Source: Phycisphaerae bacterium
GTDB taxonomy: Bacteria; Planctomycetota; Phycisphaerae; Sedimentisphaerales; Anaerobacaceae
Length of the DNA: 64,000 nt
NCBI GenBank assembly: GCA_012744475.1
Contig: JAAYBV010000080.1
Location: 1 to 64,000, forward strand
Direction of reading: 5' to 3'
Of the stretch, positions 8,867 to 17,046 are shown one piece after another. Below the pieces are notes generated by a model. The model did not search any database and had not been told where the DNA came from. It was given only the letters and a program-made list of their open reading frames with translations. Within the stretch, counting starts at the first letter, position 1, and the number at the start of each line of letters is the position of its first letter. The position numbers and the translations under genes were made by a program.

Positions 8867-9144
8867 GGCACCTTCCCGTAATCATCTGTTAGTATTCAGT
8901 TTGGGTAACTTGACCGAACGCATAAGCATACTCGCCGGCCCGTCCCCTGGCAAGCCCTTTCCCAGCCTGAAGCGGTACTGTTGGGTCTCTTGGGTCCCTT
9001 TGGTCCTTGGAGAGCGAAAGGACCTAGGGGACCAAAGGGACCTGAAGGACGAAACTCTCGCGATTGGCGCAGCCGGATCGAGGAGCTACCATCGCACAAC
9101 ACTACTGGATCGTTATGGGGCGCCGACTCGCGGGAGGTTATTGG
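8867..9144. other. Divergent intergenic region between tkt and sulfatase
   Basis: 278 bp containing repeat copy 3 (8984-9055). It must hold promoters for both divergent genes, but I find no clear -35/-10 pair on either strand. The sulfatase ribosome-binding site is at its right end (GGGAGG near 9131). Confidence 0.5.
8984..9055. repeat. 9-nt-unit inverted repeat, copy 3
   Basis: 72 nt again. Three GGTC units (GGTCTCTTG, GGTCCCTTT, GGTCCTTGG), a degenerate central unit, then GGACCTAGG, GGACCAAAG, GGACCTGAA and GGACGAAAC. It lies between the divergent tkt and sulfatase genes. Confidence 0.87.
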
Positions 9145-10698
9145 ATGAATCGAAGAGAATTTCTGGTACGGTCGGGCCTATCGTGCGCGGGGCTGGGGGC
9201 TGTCGCGGGCTTCCCGGCGCGCCGGGACGCCGAGCAAAGGACCTCACGACGGCCGAATATCATCTATCTGCTGGCCGACCAGTTGCGGTATCAGTCGTGC
9301 GGGTACGCCGGCGATCCGCCTCTGGCGGAGACGCCCAACCTCGACCGCCTCGCGTCGGAAGGGGTGAGCTTCCGTCAGGCCGTCTCGCACATGCCCGTCT
9401 GCTCGGCGTACCGCGCGTCGCTGTTCACGGGCAAGCACACGACCGGCACGGGCATGGTCATCAACGAGCTGCGGATGAACCCGAACCAGAGGTGCCTGGG
9501 TCACGTGCTGACGGAGGCCGGCTACGAGACGGGATACATCGGCAAGTGGCACCTCTACGCCAACCAGCTCGGCAATCACTTCGATCCGGCCAATTCGTTC
9601 GTCCCGCGCGGGCCCCACCGCCTCGGCTTCGACGGCTACTGGGCGGCGTACAACTTCCACCATGACTACTACGGCAGCTACTACCACACCGAATCACCCG
9701 AGAAGATCTTCTATGGCGATGGCGTCTTCGAGCCGGATGCGCAGACGGACATGGCGATCGACTTTATCTCGAAGCAGGCAGGCGGCGAGAAGCCCTTCTT
9801 CCTGATGGTCTCGTACGGGACGCCGCACGACCCGTGGGTCAAGAGCAACGTGCCCGCGAAGTTCTACGACATGTTCAAGGACGTGACGTTTGAGATGCCG
9901 CCCAACTACTCCGACGAGTTGGACCCATACGGCGACGAGTGGTCCAACATCGAGAAGAGCCCTAAGCAGATCAACGAGTGGATGCGCAACTACTATGCGA
10001 TGACCGCCAATCTCGACTGGAACATCGGCTGCATCGTCGACGCGGTCGACAAGGCGGGCCTGGCCGAAGACACCCTGATCGTGTTCACCAGCGATCATGG
10101 CGAGATGTTCGGCGGGCATGGTCGGATGAAGAAGAACATCTTCTACGAAGAGGCCGCCCGCGTGCCGTTCCTGATGCGCTGGCACGGCCGCATCCCCGCG
10201 GGCATCGTCTCGGATGCGTGTCTCAATACGCCGGACATCATGCCCACGCTGCTGGGCCTGGCGGCCTTAAGCTCGCGCATCCCGCAGAGCGTCGAGGGCA
10301 TGGACCTGAGCCACGTGGCGCAGGGCAAGAGCGGCCCGGAACCCGATGCGGCCTTCCTCATGAACACCGGCGCCTGCGCCATCTGGGAGGACGGCCACGA
10401 GTGGCGCGCCCTGCGGGACCAGCGCCACACCTACGCCGTCTTCCGAGGCGAAGGACCCAAGAACCTCCCGCGAAAAGAGGTCCTGTTTGACCACGTCACC
10501 GACCCCTGGCAGATGAAGGATCTGTCCGCCGATCCGGCTCATGCCGAGACCTTGCAGAAGTACCGGGCCATGCTCCAGGCGAAGATGGCCGGACTCCACG
10601 ACACGTTTCCGGCTTCAAGCTGGTACCGCGACCACTGGACCGACGGCACCCGCCGTATCACCGCCGCCGCCCAAGGCCCCTTCCCGCGTGAAGTGTGA
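9145..10698 (+). CDS. Tat-exported sulfatase
   Basis: 517 aa. The start at 9145 has a GGGAGG site and opens a twin-arginine signal (NRREFLVRSGLSCAGLGAV). The alkaline phosphatase-like sulfatase fold begins PNIIYLLADQ with the metal Asp. The formylglycine motif is CSAYR (C86), a CxAxR variant of CxPxR. IGKWHL and FTSDHGEMFGGHG supply further metal and catalytic residues. The substrate is probably a sulfated polysaccharide (inference). A TCCCGGCGCGCCGGGA palindrome lies in frame at residues 23-28, and the C-terminus ITAAAQGPFPRE is encoded by DNA repeated at 12521-12557. Confidence 0.93.
   Translation: MNRREFLVRSGLSCAGLGAVAGFPARRDAEQRTSRRPNIIYLLADQLRYQSCGYAGDPPLAETPNLDRLASEGVSFRQAVSHMPVCSAYRASLFTGKHTTGTGMVINELRMNPNQRCLGHVLTEAGYETGYIGKWHLYANQLGNHFDPANSFVPRGPHRLGFDGYWAAYNFHHDYYGSYYHTESPEKIFYGDGVFEPDAQTDMAIDFISKQAGGEKPFFLMVSYGTPHDPWVKSNVPAKFYDMFKDVTFEMPPNYSDELDPYGDEWSNIEKSPKQINEWMRNYYAMTANLDWNIGCIVDAVDKAGLAEDTLIVFTSDHGEMFGGHGRMKKNIFYEEAARVPFLMRWHGRIPAGIVSDACLNTPDIMPTLLGLAALSSRIPQSVEGMDLSHVAQGKSGPEPDAAFLMNTGACAIWEDGHEWRALRDQRHTYAVFRGEGPKNLPRKEVLFDHVTDPWQMKDLSADPAHAETLQKYRAMLQAKMAGLHDTFPASSWYRDHWTDGTRRITAAAQGPFPREV
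9212..9227. repeat. Small palindrome in the sulfatase signal region
   Basis: TCCCGGCGCGCCGGGA, perfectly palindromic, within codons 23-28. An identical 16-mer occurs at 28648-28663 inside an intergenic repeat element. Confidence 0.75.
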
Positions 10699-10925
10699 CG
10701 CGTAGAGCCGGCGGCTTGTGTGTGTGAAAACATTCTGGCATTCGTGTGGCAGCCTCAAACGCGCAGCGTTTGGGGATGGCGGACTTGACTGCCGAAGCGA
10801 TGGCAGAGGGTCGCCCATGCACGGAACCATCCCCAAGCTCTTCGAGCTTGAGGCTGCCACACACGGTTCTCTACGGCTCAGCGGGCCGTGCCGTGAAATC
10901 CGCTCAGACACGGCGGCTTTGCACT
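10699..10925. repeat. TGGCAGCCTCAA element, long copy 1
   Basis: A core inverted repeat (10744-10862) begins GTGTGGCAGCCTCAA and ends TTGAGGCTGCCACAC. Inner arms TTTGGGGATGG and CCATCCCCAA also pair. Sequence on both sides (from about 10700 and to about 10925) resembles the flanks of the copy at 21620-21850, so the unit is about 230 bp. It fills the gap between the sulfatase and the HTH gene. Confidence 0.8.
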
Positions 10926-10937
10926 TCACAGTCGATC

Positions 10938-10966
10938 TTGACGCGCCGGCGGGCGTGTGGTATCGT
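10938..10966 (+). promoter_or_regulatory. Sigma-70-like promoter for the HTH gene
   Basis: TTGACG (10938-10943), a 17-nt spacer and TATCGT (10961-10966). It is placed 27 nt upstream of the HTH start codon and follows the repeat element directly. Confidence 0.65.
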
Positions 10967-10992
10967 GGGATGTTCGCTTGGAGGTGCCCCGA

Positions 10993-11232
10993 ATGCCGTT
11001 GACCAAGAAAGAACTCGACGCGCTGAGCCGGCTGTTCCGACTCTCGGCGCGGGAGGTGGAACTGATTGCTCTGATCCTGGACGGGGTCAGCACGAACGCC
11101 GAACTGGCCCAGCGCACCGGGCTGTCCGTCGCGACGGTCAAGGTCTACGTGCACCAGCTTCTCTCGAAGATCGGCGCGCCCGACAAGCTGGCCGGCGCGA
11201 TCGTCTGTCTCAAGAACGTCGGGCGCCTCTGA
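10993..11232 (+). CDS. LuxR/GerE-type helix-turn-helix protein
   Basis: 79 aa, consisting almost only of a GerE DNA-binding domain: LSAREVELIALILDGVSTNAELAQ is the start of the fold and LSVATVKVYVHQLLSKIG the recognition helix. There is no receiver or ligand domain. The start at 10993 has GGAGGTG upstream. It is probably a small transcription regulator for the genes that follow; the target is unknown. A good promoter lies at 10938-10966. Confidence 0.85.
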   Translation: MPLTKKELDALSRLFRLSAREVELIALILDGVSTNAELAQRTGLSVATVKVYVHQLLSKIGAPDKLAGAIVCLKNVGRL

Positions 11233-11262
11233 CATTTCCGATTGCGGATTGGGGATTTCCGC

Positions 11263-11352
11263 GGGTGGCAGCCTCAAGCGCAGCTTGGGGATGGCTCATT
11301 CACGCGTACCATCCCCAAGGCTTCGTTTCACTGCGCCTTGAGGCTGCCACCC
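11263..11352. repeat. TGGCAGCCTCAA element, copy 2
   Basis: Ends GGGTGGCAGCCTCAA and TTGAGGCTGCCACCC; inner arms CTTGGGGATGG and CCATCCCCAAG. It is 90 bp, without the long flanks of copies 1 and 3. A GTAGGGGC-type palindrome follows it immediately. Confidence 0.82.
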
Positions 11353-11526
11353 AGCCTGCCCCTACGGGCGAATGATGATTCGCCCCTACGTGGTCTGTGG
11401 CCTCCTCGGAAAAAAATCTGCGAATTCTGTCGAAAGTTCTTGCATTGGGCTCAAGTCCCGATAACCTATCGGTCGATAGTATCCATAGATGGCTCCTTTC
11501 ACTCCGTTGCGGGCGCGTGCGGCGGA

Positions 11527-11542
11527 TCCGCCAGAAGGCGGA
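11527..11542. repeat. TCCGCC/GGCGGA small palindrome
   Basis: TCCGCC-AGAA-GGCGGA. It is one of six such palindromes in the window (also 11614, 12240, 15302, 16828 and 39431). Confidence 0.6.
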
Positions 11543-11613
11543 CTGCCCGCCCTTGCAAGCCGCACACCGCACGCCGGAAAGGGTCACCACGAGAGGCCTC
11601 TACAAACGGTGGT

Positions 11614-11628
11614 TCCGCCGAAGGCGGA
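11614..11628. repeat. TCCGCC/GGCGGA small palindrome
   Basis: TCCGCC-GAA-GGCGGA in the leader region of the next gene. A second hairpin, GGCGCCCCGG...CGCCGGGGACGCC, follows within 10 nt. Confidence 0.6.
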
Positions 11629-11729
11629 CGGGCGCCCCGGTTCTGCGCCGGGGACGCCGCAAACGAGGAAGCGACGCGGGATTCGTCGCGCTGCGCGAGA
11701 GGAACGCGCGAAGAATGGGAGAAATCTGT

Positions 11730-12176
11730 ATGCAAAGCAACCAACACAGACCGATTCCGATGCCGTCGGCGCGCCAGGAAGCCCCGGACGACAGCGAGGC
11801 GCGTGTCGCGCGGCTGCTGGACCGCCCGGCGGTGACGCGCCTGTTCGACAGTTGGCTGATCGACCTGGAGATCCTGTCGGGCGCGCTGAGCCGGCGCGAG
11901 ATCAGCGAACAAGCCTACATGGGCGCGCTGCCGAGAATCCACGAGCAGTTGCGCTACTACGGCAGCGGGGGCGAACTGCGCCGGGACCTGGAGCGCCTGG
12001 AGGCGATCCTGACCGGCCTCGACGGGGCCGGGACCGCGCCGCCGGAGGCCGGGGCAGACCCGAAATCGTCCCCGGTGGCGGAGGCGGAGAAACAAGATAG
12101 TTCCGCTCCGGAATCGGGTTCTGGCACGGAAGTTGCAACTTCGAATTCGAAACGAATGCGAAAGATCAGGAAGTAA
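11730..12176 (+). CDS. Small protein of unknown function
   Basis: 148 aa, not recognised. The start MQSNQHRPIPMPS is preceded by GGGAGAA. The middle (about residues 25-105) is predicted mostly helical (ARLLDRPAVTRLFDSWLIDL; LRRDLERLEAILTG). The tail after residue 110 is low-complexity (P, E, A, S), ending NSKRMRKIRK in repeat-like DNA. It lies 500 bp after the HTH gene and 98 bp before the next small frame, so the three may form one cassette. Confidence 0.55.
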   Translation: MQSNQHRPIPMPSARQEAPDDSEARVARLLDRPAVTRLFDSWLIDLEILSGALSRREISEQAYMGALPRIHEQLRYYGSGGELRRDLERLEAILTGLDGAGTAPPEAGADPKSSPVAEAEKQDSSAPESGSGTEVATSNSKRMRKIRK

Positions 12177-12191
12177 ATCGAAAGCGAAATC

Positions 12192-12236
12192 CCGAGTTCG
12201 AAAGGGAATGGAAACTACTCTTTTTTTCGAACTCGG
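12192..12236. repeat. Inverted repeat with 12-bp arms
   Basis: CCGAGTTCGAAA (12192-12203) and TTTCGAACTCGG (12225-12236) are perfect reverse complements around a 21-nt loop. It is followed at once by a TCCGCCTGCGGCGGA palindrome (12240-12254). A run of seven T lies before the right arm, so it does not look like an intrinsic terminator. Confidence 0.75.
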
Positions 12237-12239
12237 TGG

Positions 12240-12254
12240 TCCGCCTGCGGCGGA
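12240..12254. repeat. TCCGCC/GGCGGA small palindrome
   Basis: TCCGCC-TGC-GGCGGA directly after the 12-bp inverted repeat and 20 nt upstream of the start codon at 12275. Confidence 0.6.
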
Positions 12255-12274
12255 CTCGAACTTCGGAGAAAAAG

Positions 12275-12667
12275 ATGAATTTTTCGATTTCGCTTCGCAC
12301 TCGCTCGCTGGCGTTCTACGAGAGCCTGCTGGCGGCGCTTCCGGCCCGGACGGTCAGCGACCGCACGGGCTACCGCCGGATCGCCGCCTGGCTGATCGAG
12401 CAGGTCGAGGCCGGACAGCGCGGCGACGACATCTTCGCCATCGTCCTGAGCTACGCGACGGAAGCCGCCGCCGCGGCGCTGCGCTGCGGCCCGCCGGCCC
12501 TGCTGGATCCCGACGCGGCCGCATCACCGCCAGCGCCCAAGGCCCCTTCCCCCGGGAAAAACCAATTTCCTGAGGGTTTTTGGCGATTCAGCCGTTACCA
12601 TTCGTTTGTGTCCCGCCTTGTAACAATGGGGGACCAAGGTCAGTTTGTTAGTACGAGGCCGACGCGG
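12275..12667 (+). other. Small open frame running into the ankyrin-serpin gene
   Basis: A start codon at 12275 with a CGGAGAA site opens MNFSISLRTRSLAFYESLLA... and a plausible compact helical protein through about residue 90. The frame has no stop before the ankyrin-serpin gene, which has its own lipoprotein signal at 12668. A single +1/-1 shift near 12510 would instead end it at 12573 as ...ITASAQGPFPREKPIS, like the sulfatase tail. I infer a small gene that has lost its stop, or a frameshifted one. The product is not recognised. Confidence 0.45.
12521..12557 (+). repeat. 37-nt repeat shared with the sulfatase 3′ end
   Basis: About 32 of 37 bases match 10655-10691. At 10655 the sequence encodes the sulfatase C-terminus; here the same peptide (ITA-AQGPFPRE) is encoded in a frame different from the open one. 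Confidence 0.6.
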
Positions 12668-15274
12668 ATGGGATGCAGAACACTGTTGCGGCTGATTCTG
12701 ATGGGGACGTTGGCGATTGCCGGTGGCTGCAAGAAGGAGCCTCAGCAGAGCGCAAGCCCACCCAAACACGCACGATCCAAAGCAGCCACACCACTGCACA
12801 GGGCCGCCGAGAAAGGCGACATCGAACAGGTGCGATCGCTCATCATCGGAGGGGCGGACGTCAGCGCACAGACCACGGGCGATTGGACGCCGCTCCACTT
12901 TGCGGTCGGAGAAGGACATGGGGAGATCGTTGCTCTGCTGCTCCATCACGGAGCCGCCTTGAATGCCAGAGATACGGGCGGGAACACGCCCCTGGATGTC
13001 GCGATCTGGTCGAGACACCCTGATTTGGCGGAACGGCTCATCGCCGAAGGCGCCGATGTCAAGGTGGAGGATCGTCACGGGGAGACACCACTTCACGAGG
13101 CGGCCAATGCAGGCTATGACGACATCGTAAAGCTCCTGATCACACGAGGGGCCGATGTCAAGGCGGCAAACGCATGGAACGGGACTCCTCTGAACTGCGC
13201 CGCTTCAGGCGGCCATCTTCAGGTCGCCCGATTGCTAGTCGAGGCGGGGGCGGACGTCCATGCGAAGTGCATTGGACACAAGACCCCGTTGCATTACGCC
13301 GTAGAGTCCGGGCATGCGGACGTCGCTGAATTCCTTGTCGCCAAGGGCGCCTCACTGGAAGAGAGAAACGATGCAGGCGACACGCCTTTGCACGTTGCGG
13401 CATCGCGCGGTTGGGAAGAGGTCGCAGAGCTTCTCGTCACACAAGGTGCTGCGATAGAATCGCTGACGTCCGATGACCAAACGGCGTTACACCTGGCTGC
13501 CAAGGAAGGTCGTAGCGACGTGGTGAAGGTTCTGGTGGCTCACGGCGCCAACGTCAAGGCCCGTGATCGGGCGGGTTCCACGCCGCTGCATCTGGCGGCC
13601 GCTTCAGGAGAAGGCATGAGCATCGAATGTCTCATCGCCGCCGGCGCCGACGTCAGTGCCCGGGCGGACAACGGACGAACCCCGCTGTACGCGGCGGTCC
13701 TGCGAGGGCACGGCGAGGGAACGTATGTGCTGCTGAGCCACGGGGCCGACCCCAACGCAGCGATCTCGTCGGGCTCGACGCCGCTGCACTGTGCGGCTCG
13801 CAAGGGCCTCGTCCAGTTGGCCGAACTGCTCCTGGCCCACGGCGCCGATGTCGACGCAACCACGAACGCAGGCTATACGCCGTTACACAGTGCGGTCCGC
13901 GCGAGTCACGCCGACGTGGCCGCCTTACTGATCGCCCACGGCGCCGATGCAGCAGCCCGAACGAGCGAGGGCAGGACACCTATCGATCTTGCGCCTGAGA
14001 TGAGCCGGCAGGATTTCGTGGCAGTTCTGACGCAGGACCGCTCCGGCAGCGCAGCGGAAGGACCGCCGACGGCAAGCGATTCGCACGCGGAGATGATCGA
14101 GGCGCCCTTGCCGGAGCCGAACACTCCTCTGGAGGTCCTCGTCCGCGGCAACACGGCGTTCGCACTCGATCTGTACCGCCAGTTGCGGACGCCGGAACGC
14201 AACCTGTTCTTCTCGCCGTACAGCATTTCGACGGGTTTGGCGATGGCCTTTGCCGCCGCCCGGGAGAACACGGAGAAGCAGATGGCCCGGACGCTGCATT
14301 TCACGCTGGACCAGGAGAGGCTGCATCCGGCCTTCGCAGAGTTGCGGACGATGCTGGAGAATATCCAGCAGGCCGGCGACATCAAGCTGAGCCAGGCCAA
14401 TTCTCTGTGGCCGCAACAGGGATACCCGTTTCTGCCTGCATACCTTTCGCTGATCGAGCGGCACTACGGGGTCTCGATCACGGCGGTCGATTACACGAGC
14501 CTAGCCGCGCGGCAGGCCGCCTGCAAGACGATCAACACGTGGGTCCAAGAGAAGACGGAAGGCCGAATCGCAGATCTCATCAGTGAAGCGAATCTCGACA
14601 AGTGGACGCGTCTGGTGCTGACCAACGCGATCTATTTCAAAGGCCGATGGGAAAGCGAGTTCGACTCCAAACGCTCGAAGGACGCTCTGTTCTTTCTCTC
14701 GGCCCGCAAGTGCGTCGAAGTCGCGATGATGGATCAAACCGAGCACTTCAAGTACGCCGAGACCGATTCGGTGCAGATCGTCGAGCTGCCCTATCGCGGC
14801 GGCGAGGTGTCGATGCTGGTGCTGCTGCCCAGGCAGATTGAAGGGCTTGCCACACTCGAAGCGAGTCTGTCGGTGGCAAGGTTGAATGCGTGGCGAAACG
14901 CCCTGACCGAGCGGAGGGTCAACGTCATGCTGCCGAAATTCGCGATGACCTTCGAGGCACGGTTGGGCAAGACGCTCAAGGCCATGGGCATGGCAGAGGC
15001 CTTGACGTGGCCCGGCGCGAATTTCGCCGGCTTCGACGGCGATCCGAATTGGTTCTACATCGACGAGGTCATCCACAAGGCCTACGTCGAGGTGAACGAA
15101 CGGGGCACGGAGGCGGCGGCCGCAACAGCGGTGGTGATGATGCTTGGGGGAATGCCCGCGCCTCCCCCGGTCTTCCGGGCGGATCATCCGTTCCTCTTCC
15201 TGATCCAGGAAAGGCAGACCGGCAGCATTCTGTTCATCGGCCGCGTAACCGATCCCACCTCATCGGGTCAGTAG
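12668..15274 (+). CDS. Lipoprotein with ankyrin repeats fused to a serpin
   Basis: 868 aa. The start at 12668 opens a lipoprotein-like signal (MGCRTLLRLILMGTLAIAGGC), predicting attachment to a membrane. Residues about 38-460 hold twelve ankyrin repeats plus a partial one (TPLHxAA, LLxxGADV). Residues about 485-868 are a complete serpin (NLFFSPYSISTGLAMAF; LTNAIYFKGRWESEF; FIGRV end). The reactive-loop hinge GTEAAAATA (about residues 813-821) has the small residues of inhibitory serpins, so it should trap serine or cysteine proteases. The ankyrin part probably binds a partner protein. This domain pairing is uncommon. A longer in-frame start at 12275 is possible. Confidence 0.88.
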   Translation: MGCRTLLRLILMGTLAIAGGCKKEPQQSASPPKHARSKAATPLHRAAEKGDIEQVRSLIIGGADVSAQTTGDWTPLHFAVGEGHGEIVALLLHHGAALNARDTGGNTPLDVAIWSRHPDLAERLIAEGADVKVEDRHGETPLHEAANAGYDDIVKLLITRGADVKAANAWNGTPLNCAASGGHLQVARLLVEAGADVHAKCIGHKTPLHYAVESGHADVAEFLVAKGASLEERNDAGDTPLHVAASRGWEEVAELLVTQGAAIESLTSDDQTALHLAAKEGRSDVVKVLVAHGANVKARDRAGSTPLHLAAASGEGMSIECLIAAGADVSARADNGRTPLYAAVLRGHGEGTYVLLSHGADPNAAISSGSTPLHCAARKGLVQLAELLLAHGADVDATTNAGYTPLHSAVRASHADVAALLIAHGADAAARTSEGRTPIDLAPEMSRQDFVAVLTQDRSGSAAEGPPTASDSHAEMIEAPLPEPNTPLEVLVRGNTAFALDLYRQLRTPERNLFFSPYSISTGLAMAFAAARENTEKQMARTLHFTLDQERLHPAFAELRTMLENIQQAGDIKLSQANSLWPQQGYPFLPAYLSLIERHYGVSITAVDYTSLAARQAACKTINTWVQEKTEGRIADLISEANLDKWTRLVLTNAIYFKGRWESEFDSKRSKDALFFLSARKCVEVAMMDQTEHFKYAETDSVQIVELPYRGGEVSMLVLLPRQIEGLATLEASLSVARLNAWRNALTERRVNVMLPKFAMTFEARLGKTLKAMGMAEALTWPGANFAGFDGDPNWFYIDEVIHKAYVEVNERGTEAAAATAVVMMLGGMPAPPPVFRADHPFLFLIQERQTGSILFIGRVTDPTSSGQ

Positions 15275-15301
15275 GATGTCGTCAGAGTTGCGCCAGCTCG
15301 C

Positions 15302-15316
15302 TCCGCCTGCGGCGGA
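15302..15316. repeat. TCCGCC/GGCGGA small palindrome between convergent genes
   Basis: TCCGCC-TGC-GGCGGA lies between the stop codons of the ankyrin-serpin gene and plsC. It could act as a bidirectional transcription stop, although there are no T runs. Confidence 0.5.
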
Positions 15317-15317
15317 C

Positions 15318-16005: not shown

Positions 16006-16078
16006 CGTCCCTTAGGTCCCTGGGGTCCTTCTTTGGCCAAAAGGACCTAAGGGACCAAAGGGACCTAAAGGACTCTGT
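16006..16078. repeat. 9-nt-unit inverted repeat, copy 4
   Basis: Left units CGTCCCTTA, GGTCCCTGG, GGTCCTTCT; centre TTGGCCAAA; right units GGACCTAAG, GGACCAAAG, GGACCTAAA, GGACTCTGT. It separates cmk from plsC, and the cmk stop codon (16065-16067) lies inside it, so the repeat provides the end of that gene. Confidence 0.87.
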
Positions 16079-16754
16079 TTGCATTTTGCCTTCGATTGAT
16101 GTGGCGCAGCAGACACTCGACGACTTCCTCGATGGTCATGCGGGTCGTGTCGACGCAGATGGCATCGGGCGCCGGCTTGAGCGGGCCGACCGCCCTGCTT
16201 TCGTCGCTGCGGTCCCGCGACTCGATCGCCCGGTGCAGCTCGTCCAGGTCGGCCTCCACGCCCTGCGATTCCAGCTCGAGCTGGCGCCGCCGGGCCCGCT
16301 CGCGCGAATCGGCGACGAGATAGAACTTGACGCCGGCGTCGGGAAACACCACCGTGCCCTGATCGCGTCCTTCGGTGACCACGCGTCCCCATCGCCGGCC
16401 GAACTGCCTCTGCATCTGGACCAGCCTGGCGCGCATCGGAGGCGACGAGGCGACGCAGCGGACGTTGGCGGTCAGCTCGGGGCTGCGGATCCGGTCCGTG
16501 ACGAGCTGCCCGTCGACGAAGACACGCATGGCGTCGTCGCCCGGCTCGAATCCGAACGTATGGCGGCCGATCACGCCGATCAACTGCGATTCATCCTTCA
16601 GATCGACCCCGTCCTGCATCGCGGCGAAGGTGACGGCGCGGTACATCGCGCCGGTGTCGAGGAATGTCGCGCCGATCCGCGAGGCCAGTCGTCGGGCCAC
16701 GGTGCTCTTGCCGCTGGCGGCCGGACCATCGATTGTCACGACAAACAAAGCCAT
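16065..16754 (-). CDS. cmk: Cytidylate kinase
   Basis: 229 aa. It phosphorylates CMP and dCMP with ATP. The P-loop is DGPAASGKST, followed by FLDTGAMYRAVTFAA and the GRDQGTVVFPDA motif, where most Cmk proteins read EGRDxGTVVFP. The start is the ATG at 16754, with GTG at 16757 as an alternative. The last residues (NRRQNANRVL) and the stop fall in or beside repeat copy 4. The 5′ 44-52 bp are duplicated upstream at 16970-17013. Confidence 0.93.
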   Translation of the reverse strand: MALFVVTIDGPAASGKSTVARRLASRIGATFLDTGAMYRAVTFAAMQDGVDLKDESQLIGVIGRHTFGFEPGDDAMRVFVDGQLVTDRIRSPELTANVRCVASSPPMRARLVQMQRQFGRRWGRVVTEGRDQGTVVFPDAGVKFYLVADSRERARRRQLELESQGVEADLDELHRAIESRDRSDESRAVGPLKPAPDAICVDTTRMTIEEVVECLLRHINRRQNANRVL

Positions 16755-16803
16755 CACTCCTGTCCTGCCCTCTCAAGCCCTTTCCCGACTCGCGACGCGG
16801 GCC

Positions 16804-16969: not shown

Positions 16970-17013
16970 GTGCTCTTGCCGCTGGCGGCCGGACCATCGA
17001 TTGTCACGACAAA
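16970..17013 (-). pseudogene. Duplicated fragment of the cmk 5′ end
   Basis: 44 bp identical to 16702-16745, extending with mismatches over the start codon (complement of CAT at 17020-17022). It encodes VTIDGPAASGKST and then stops in repeat DNA. It is a broken start of cytidylate kinase, left by an insertion with long target duplication or by a tandem duplication. Confidence 0.8.
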
Positions 17014-17046
17014 ACGAGCCATCGCCGCTCCGGTACTCGTCGGTTC

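Follow-up and report, generated by a model that had tools for sequence, protein, structure and literature searches.

The window analysed here is a stretch of 64,000 nucleotides from a Phycisphaerae bacterium (GCA_012744475.1, contig JAAYBV010000080.1). Its forward strand encodes, at 12668..15274, a protein of 868 aa (ATG at 12668, stop codon at 15272-15274) in which a lipoprotein-type N-terminus is followed by ankyrin repeats and a C-terminal serpin domain, hereafter Ank-serpin. The frame is open from 12236, upstream of 12668, and the start was set at 12668 because the signal peptide and three relatives fit there. The small ORF at 12236-12667 reads without a stop into Ank-serpin; its first ~70 residues are matched in 18 of the 88 other genomes of the family and represent a small protein family with no Pfam match. 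To the left of the gene lie a sulfatase, a LuxR-type HTH protein of ~80 residues and two small ORFs, neither of which has a Pfam match. To the right, a convergent acyltransferase gene is followed by a kinase-like gene, presumably encoding a cytidylate kinase. A 54-bp direct repeat (16702-16755 and 16970-17023, 94% identical), beside and overlapping the start of this kinase gene, looks like an incomplete duplication of the 5' end of that gene. Elsewhere in the window, short AAAGGACCT-type repeats occur 7 kb apart, at 8999-9050 and 16031-16073, also in inverted form.

The HTH gene, the two small ORFs and Ank-serpin are contained in a stretch of ~4.6 kb (10693..15317) between the sulfatase and acyltransferase genes. 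Congener G395 lacks this stretch at the corresponding position, and the two genes adjoin there with 94 bp between them. The 3' tip of the sulfatase gene also adjoins the acyltransferase gene in G396, the sulfatase was not found at the corresponding site in G393 and G394, and Ank-serpin is absent from all five congeners. Gain in the lineage of the window is the simplest reading of these comparisons, with losses in the congeners as a possible alternative. A 41-bp repeat on the forward strand has one copy at the 3' end of the sulfatase gene (10652..10692) and a second, 88% identical, 110 bp upstream of the Ank-serpin start (12518..12558); these are its only two copies in the whole genome. A terminator-like site precedes the Ank-serpin gene, the frequency of such sites there being not above chance. 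The sequence-only reading had linked Ank-serpin to the HTH regulator and the small genes. These genes do share a lineage-specific insert with it, but at none of the three other Ank-serpin loci described below does an HTH gene, a small ORF or any other neighbour of this locus recur, and the idea of a joint operon was dropped for this reason.

The N-terminus of the protein, MGCRTLLRLILMGTLAIAGGC, comprises a signal peptide and a lipobox with Cys at position 21 (residues 1-21, 12668..12730, forward strand). The lipobox pattern, which we take to be that of PROSITE, is found in all four Ank-serpins, and the protein is therefore probably lipid-anchored at the cell envelope. Residues 42-455 approximately (12791..14032, forward strand) form a solenoid of tandem helix-pair repeats of ~33 residues, as expected of ankyrin repeats. 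Pfam ankyrin families score 283-294 bits in this N-terminal half, a profile derived from the repeats of the protein itself detects 12 strong copies, with a weak thirteenth as a cap, and 13 helix pairs are seen in residues 42-455 of the AlphaFold model, with pLDDT mostly 85-96. The best PDB matches of the model in a fold search were DARPins and ankyrins. The serpin domain (residues 494-863, 14147..15256, forward strand) is full length, matching positions 2-370 of the 370 in Pfam Serpin (PF00079) with 374.8 bits (E 6.5e-112), and its closest solved relative is 8gxv (1e-98, 334 bits). Two AlphaFold models of this half, made with an alignment depth of four rows, both have pLDDT below 50, and the top 50 fold-search matches of the first model were all ankyrin-type chains. 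Pfam, the repeat profile and the lipobox Cys21 thus bear out the initial description of ankyrin repeats joined to a serpin in a lipoprotein-type protein, which is correct in all parts that can be checked in the sequence.

A scan of genome contigs with the whole protein as query returned three loci, of which one, L072 from a Lake Pavin Phycisphaerae MAG, is a full-length relative that aligns end to end with Ank-serpin (445 of 885 columns identical, 50%). A match in genome G721 gives the same frame as L072, and both were taken as one record. Searches of the class (397 genomes) and of the family (89 genomes), with 34 regions tested for an ankyrin fusion, plus follow-up added two further Ank-serpins, in G785 and G790. 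The same build is therefore present in the window genome and in three other genomes of its family, which rules out a chance open frame or a chimeric assembly. The four proteins vary in length from 711 to 868 aa. In the phylum search, the ankyrin test covered the listed matches with open frames of at least 564 aa and the loci returned by the search; among 131 distinct serpin ORFs at 158 loci, ankyrin repeats are present in exactly four proteins. When 161 genomes of the order were searched with a profile made from these four serpin domains, four matches scored 733-758 bits and the next best 500.5 bits; the fusion is therefore a genuine, rare family. The rarity claimed for this architecture in the sequence-only reading is thus upheld by both domain-architecture and profile searches (4/161 genomes of the order, all in the window's own family, 4/89), and by these searches Ank-serpins are a small, patchily distributed family. 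Its companion claim, that bacterial serpins are uncommon, does not apply to this phylum, in which 120 of 392 genomes have one. All four Ank-serpin genomes also encode a second, single-domain serpin (frames of 388-440 aa). Carriage by a phage or plasmid found no support: a viral scan returned no relative, and the serpin records from plasmids (71) and phages (2) are all less than 60% identical to the serpin half.

The hinge of the serpin is intact. ERGTEAAAATA occupies residues 811-821 and conforms to the pattern of inhibitory serpins (small residues at P12-P9, Gly at P15 and Thr or Ser at P14), and GTEAAAATA (813-821) is retained in all four Ank-serpins. The inhibitory-type hinge proposed earlier is thus in place, and it fits the consensus ExGTEAAAA given in the available text of PMC10090351. 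The same hinge pattern is matched by 112 of 117 serpin domains compared, the window copy included. The expectation that key serpin residues would withstand alignment held for the hinge and for 70 of the 75 core columns that are at least 90% uniform; it held less well at A523G, G530A, T670S and F779L, four departures that are private to the window copy or nearly so. The fifth departure, F609Y, also occurs in two other Ank-serpins, while positions 523, 530, 670 and 779 have the common residue in the three other members. Judging from the alignment, the four near-private substitutions could weaken folding or loop insertion in the window copy. They would also suit a serpin half that is folded but non-inhibitory, acting as a ligand binder or structural element while the ankyrin rod does the work. 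We consider this quite improbable, since GTEAAAATA is kept by all four members, the serpin halves (55-67% pairwise identity) are better conserved than the ankyrin halves (40-44%), and the 30-residue segment from G813 to F842 differs between the window copy and L072 at a single position, against 67% identity across the serpin.

That segment, GTEAAAATAVVMMLGGMPAPPPVFRADHPF (residues 813-842, 15104..15193, forward strand), comprises the hinge and the reactive-centre loop up to F842. In the other two members, the loop is one residue shorter and differs in sequence, and its conservation was accordingly dropped as proof of a shared target. Counting from G813 as P15 places the nominal scissile bond at G827-G828, whereas the alignment with 8gxv, in which the P1 residue of 8gxv falls in a gap, would place it at L826-G827. 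Since the members vary in both the length and the register of the loop, the position of the bond is uncertain. Neither register gives a basic P1, and there is no basic residue in the loop near the scissile bond, which makes a trypsin-like enzyme, one of the two protease types put forward in the sequence-only reading, an unlikely target. An elastase- or subtilisin-like target appears to be the better guess. A charge-free loop is not a hallmark of Ank-serpins, and was dropped as such, given that P4-P4' is uncharged in 25 of the 112 hinge-bearing serpins, among them three of the four Ank-serpins.

Defence against external proteases is possible. The serpin might instead restrain subtilisin-like proteases that the bacterium itself exports, serving self-protection or timing at the envelope. 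In favour of this alternative are the 13 stretches of the window genome that match Peptidase_S8, spread over about 11 open frames, and the lack of a basic loop residue near the scissile bond, which suits subtilases over trypsin-like enzymes. Inspection by eye of the regions read around the Ank-serpins showed no adjacent S8 gene, which counts against this alternative, and we see it as possible but somewhat doubtful.

A tree of 117 serpin domains drawn from the 131 distinct ORFs was built with a quick method and midpoint rooting, leaving out the truncated copy L076, domains shorter than 340 residues, and sequences identical to or contained within another. The serpin halves of the four Ank-serpins group in a single clade (SH-aLRT 100), whose neighbours are standalone serpins of WOR-3/Stahlbacteria MAGs and of G439, the wider group having a support of 91. 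Within the clade, the window copy pairs with that of G721 (92) and G785 with G790 (89), yet G721 and G790 belong to the same genus, a discordance in the tree that hints at transfer or differential loss. The window genome also encodes other ankyrin proteins, several of them starting lipoprotein-like. In the same comparison, the ankyrin half is 35-44% identical to these paralogs and 40-41% identical to the ankyrin halves of the three other members. One fusion of two parts already at hand, an ankyrin lipoprotein and a secreted serpin, is the simplest account.

Ankyrin solenoids serve, as a rule of the family, as binding scaffolds. The rod could be a built-in targeting cofactor that, by binding a specific protein of the envelope or a protease complex, keeps the serpin at the site of its protease, an idea that we regard as unlikely in this specific form. 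The ankyrin identities of only 40-44% appear to weaken the case for a single conserved docking partner, and the combination of a conserved serpin half with a varied rod would fit either a partner that varies or a stalk under loose constraint. The second option, in which the ankyrin half is a plain spacer or membrane stalk with no binding partner, also draws on the range of lengths among the members (711 to 868 aa), on the low identity of their ankyrin halves and on the fact that these are about as close to ankyrin lipoproteins of the same genome as to each other. A stalk, however, would not need twelve canonical repeats, and ankyrin solenoids usually bind; a mere stalk is therefore possible but, in our view, rather less than probable.

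Taken together, these data are most consistent with an envelope-anchored inhibitory serpin carried on a built-in docking rod and derived from one fusion, a reading to which we give a probability of roughly 60%. The protein would be exported, lipidated on Cys21 and retained at the cell envelope. There, the ankyrin rod would bear the serpin distally and act either as a spacer or as a docking arm for a partner. The reactive loop would be cut near L826-G827-G828 by a serine protease, probably one with elastase- or subtilisin-like preference; the cut loop would then enter the serpin sheet, trapping the protease covalently, one per molecule. Ank-serpin would represent a duplicated, specialised serpin that arose when an ankyrin lipoprotein fused once with a secreted serpin, with patchy spread or loss thereafter. 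Given that the role of bacterial serpins is mostly open, an ankyrin-tethered serpin with an envelope anchor predicted from its motif offers a handle on this question: the ankyrin half could be used as bait for its partner and hence for the protease.

Each half of Ank-serpin is ordinary by itself, and related parts occur in other arrangements in the window genome and its phylum. Ankyrin lipoprotein-like proteins encoded on contigs 10, 27 and 65 of the window genome likewise start with a short signal containing Cys, followed by 12-18 ankyrin repeats, but have no serpin. One of them, on contig 27 (L077:457-2547), has ~130 C-terminal residues past the repeats that matched no Pfam family. Standalone serpins of the family share the serpin domain, the hinge and the phylum with Ank-serpin; they differ in that their loops often read VVM[KR]LTSxGP and that they fall in a separate clade. 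An example is the second serpin of the window genome, a single domain in a 436-aa frame (L001, G000:C2:40645-41790), which has close tree relatives in congeners G394, G395 and G396. In the same phylum, an ECF-type sigma factor is fused to a C-terminal serpin in eight ORFs (L050, L051, L052, L054, L055, L057, L062 and L063) from genomes G141, G110, G171, G076 and G056 (family f54). As in Ank-serpin, the serpin is borne C-terminally by another module, but the N-terminal module is a sigma factor rather than ankyrin repeats. In L050:1141-3405, the two are separated by a hydrophobic segment and a linker rich in Pro and Ala, much as one might expect if the serpin lay outside the membrane and served a tethered sigma factor as its sensor; we found no relevant report of such fusions in the open-access literature. 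In L130:1648-4158 (G695), a multi-inhibitor protein, a chagasin-family (I42) inhibitor domain and a Cys-rich stretch, which we presume to be Kazal-like, precede the serpin. A single frame of 1488 residues, L126:1172-5635 (G686), combines a serpin domain with methyltransferase-like and PQQ/BamB-like domains. The serpins of this phylum are thus not only free secreted inhibitors but also modular parts joined to ankyrin rods, sigma factors and other inhibitors.

No bacterial ankyrin-serpin fusion was found described in the open-access literature; in the available portions of PMC9296628, PMC7848895 and PMC8233489, ankyrins and serpins are handled apart or are absent, and the word 'ankyrin' does not appear in the main text of PMC8233489 as available. 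Membrane anchoring of a serpin alone is already known, as the prokaryotic serpin classes in the available text of PMC8233489 include periplasmic and membrane-anchored ones. The closest solved relative, 8gxv, is by inference chloropin, the Chlorobium limicola serpin: its loop has the Arg-Ser bond named in the accessible part of PMC10090351. That text describes chloropin as a single-domain bacterial serpin that covalently traps proteases, with heparin and DNA serving as bridging cofactors that accelerate it. Chloropin, if correctly equated with 8gxv, resembles Ank-serpin as a bacterial inhibitory-type serpin with the same hinge, but it lacks an ankyrin half and has Arg at P1, where the Ank-serpin alignment has a gap. 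Because Ank-serpin has no P1 Arg, its target would be expected to belong to a different protease class from that of chloropin. Were the ankyrin rod a targeting cofactor, one chain would do the job for which antithrombin or chloropin relies on separate bridging by heparin or DNA.
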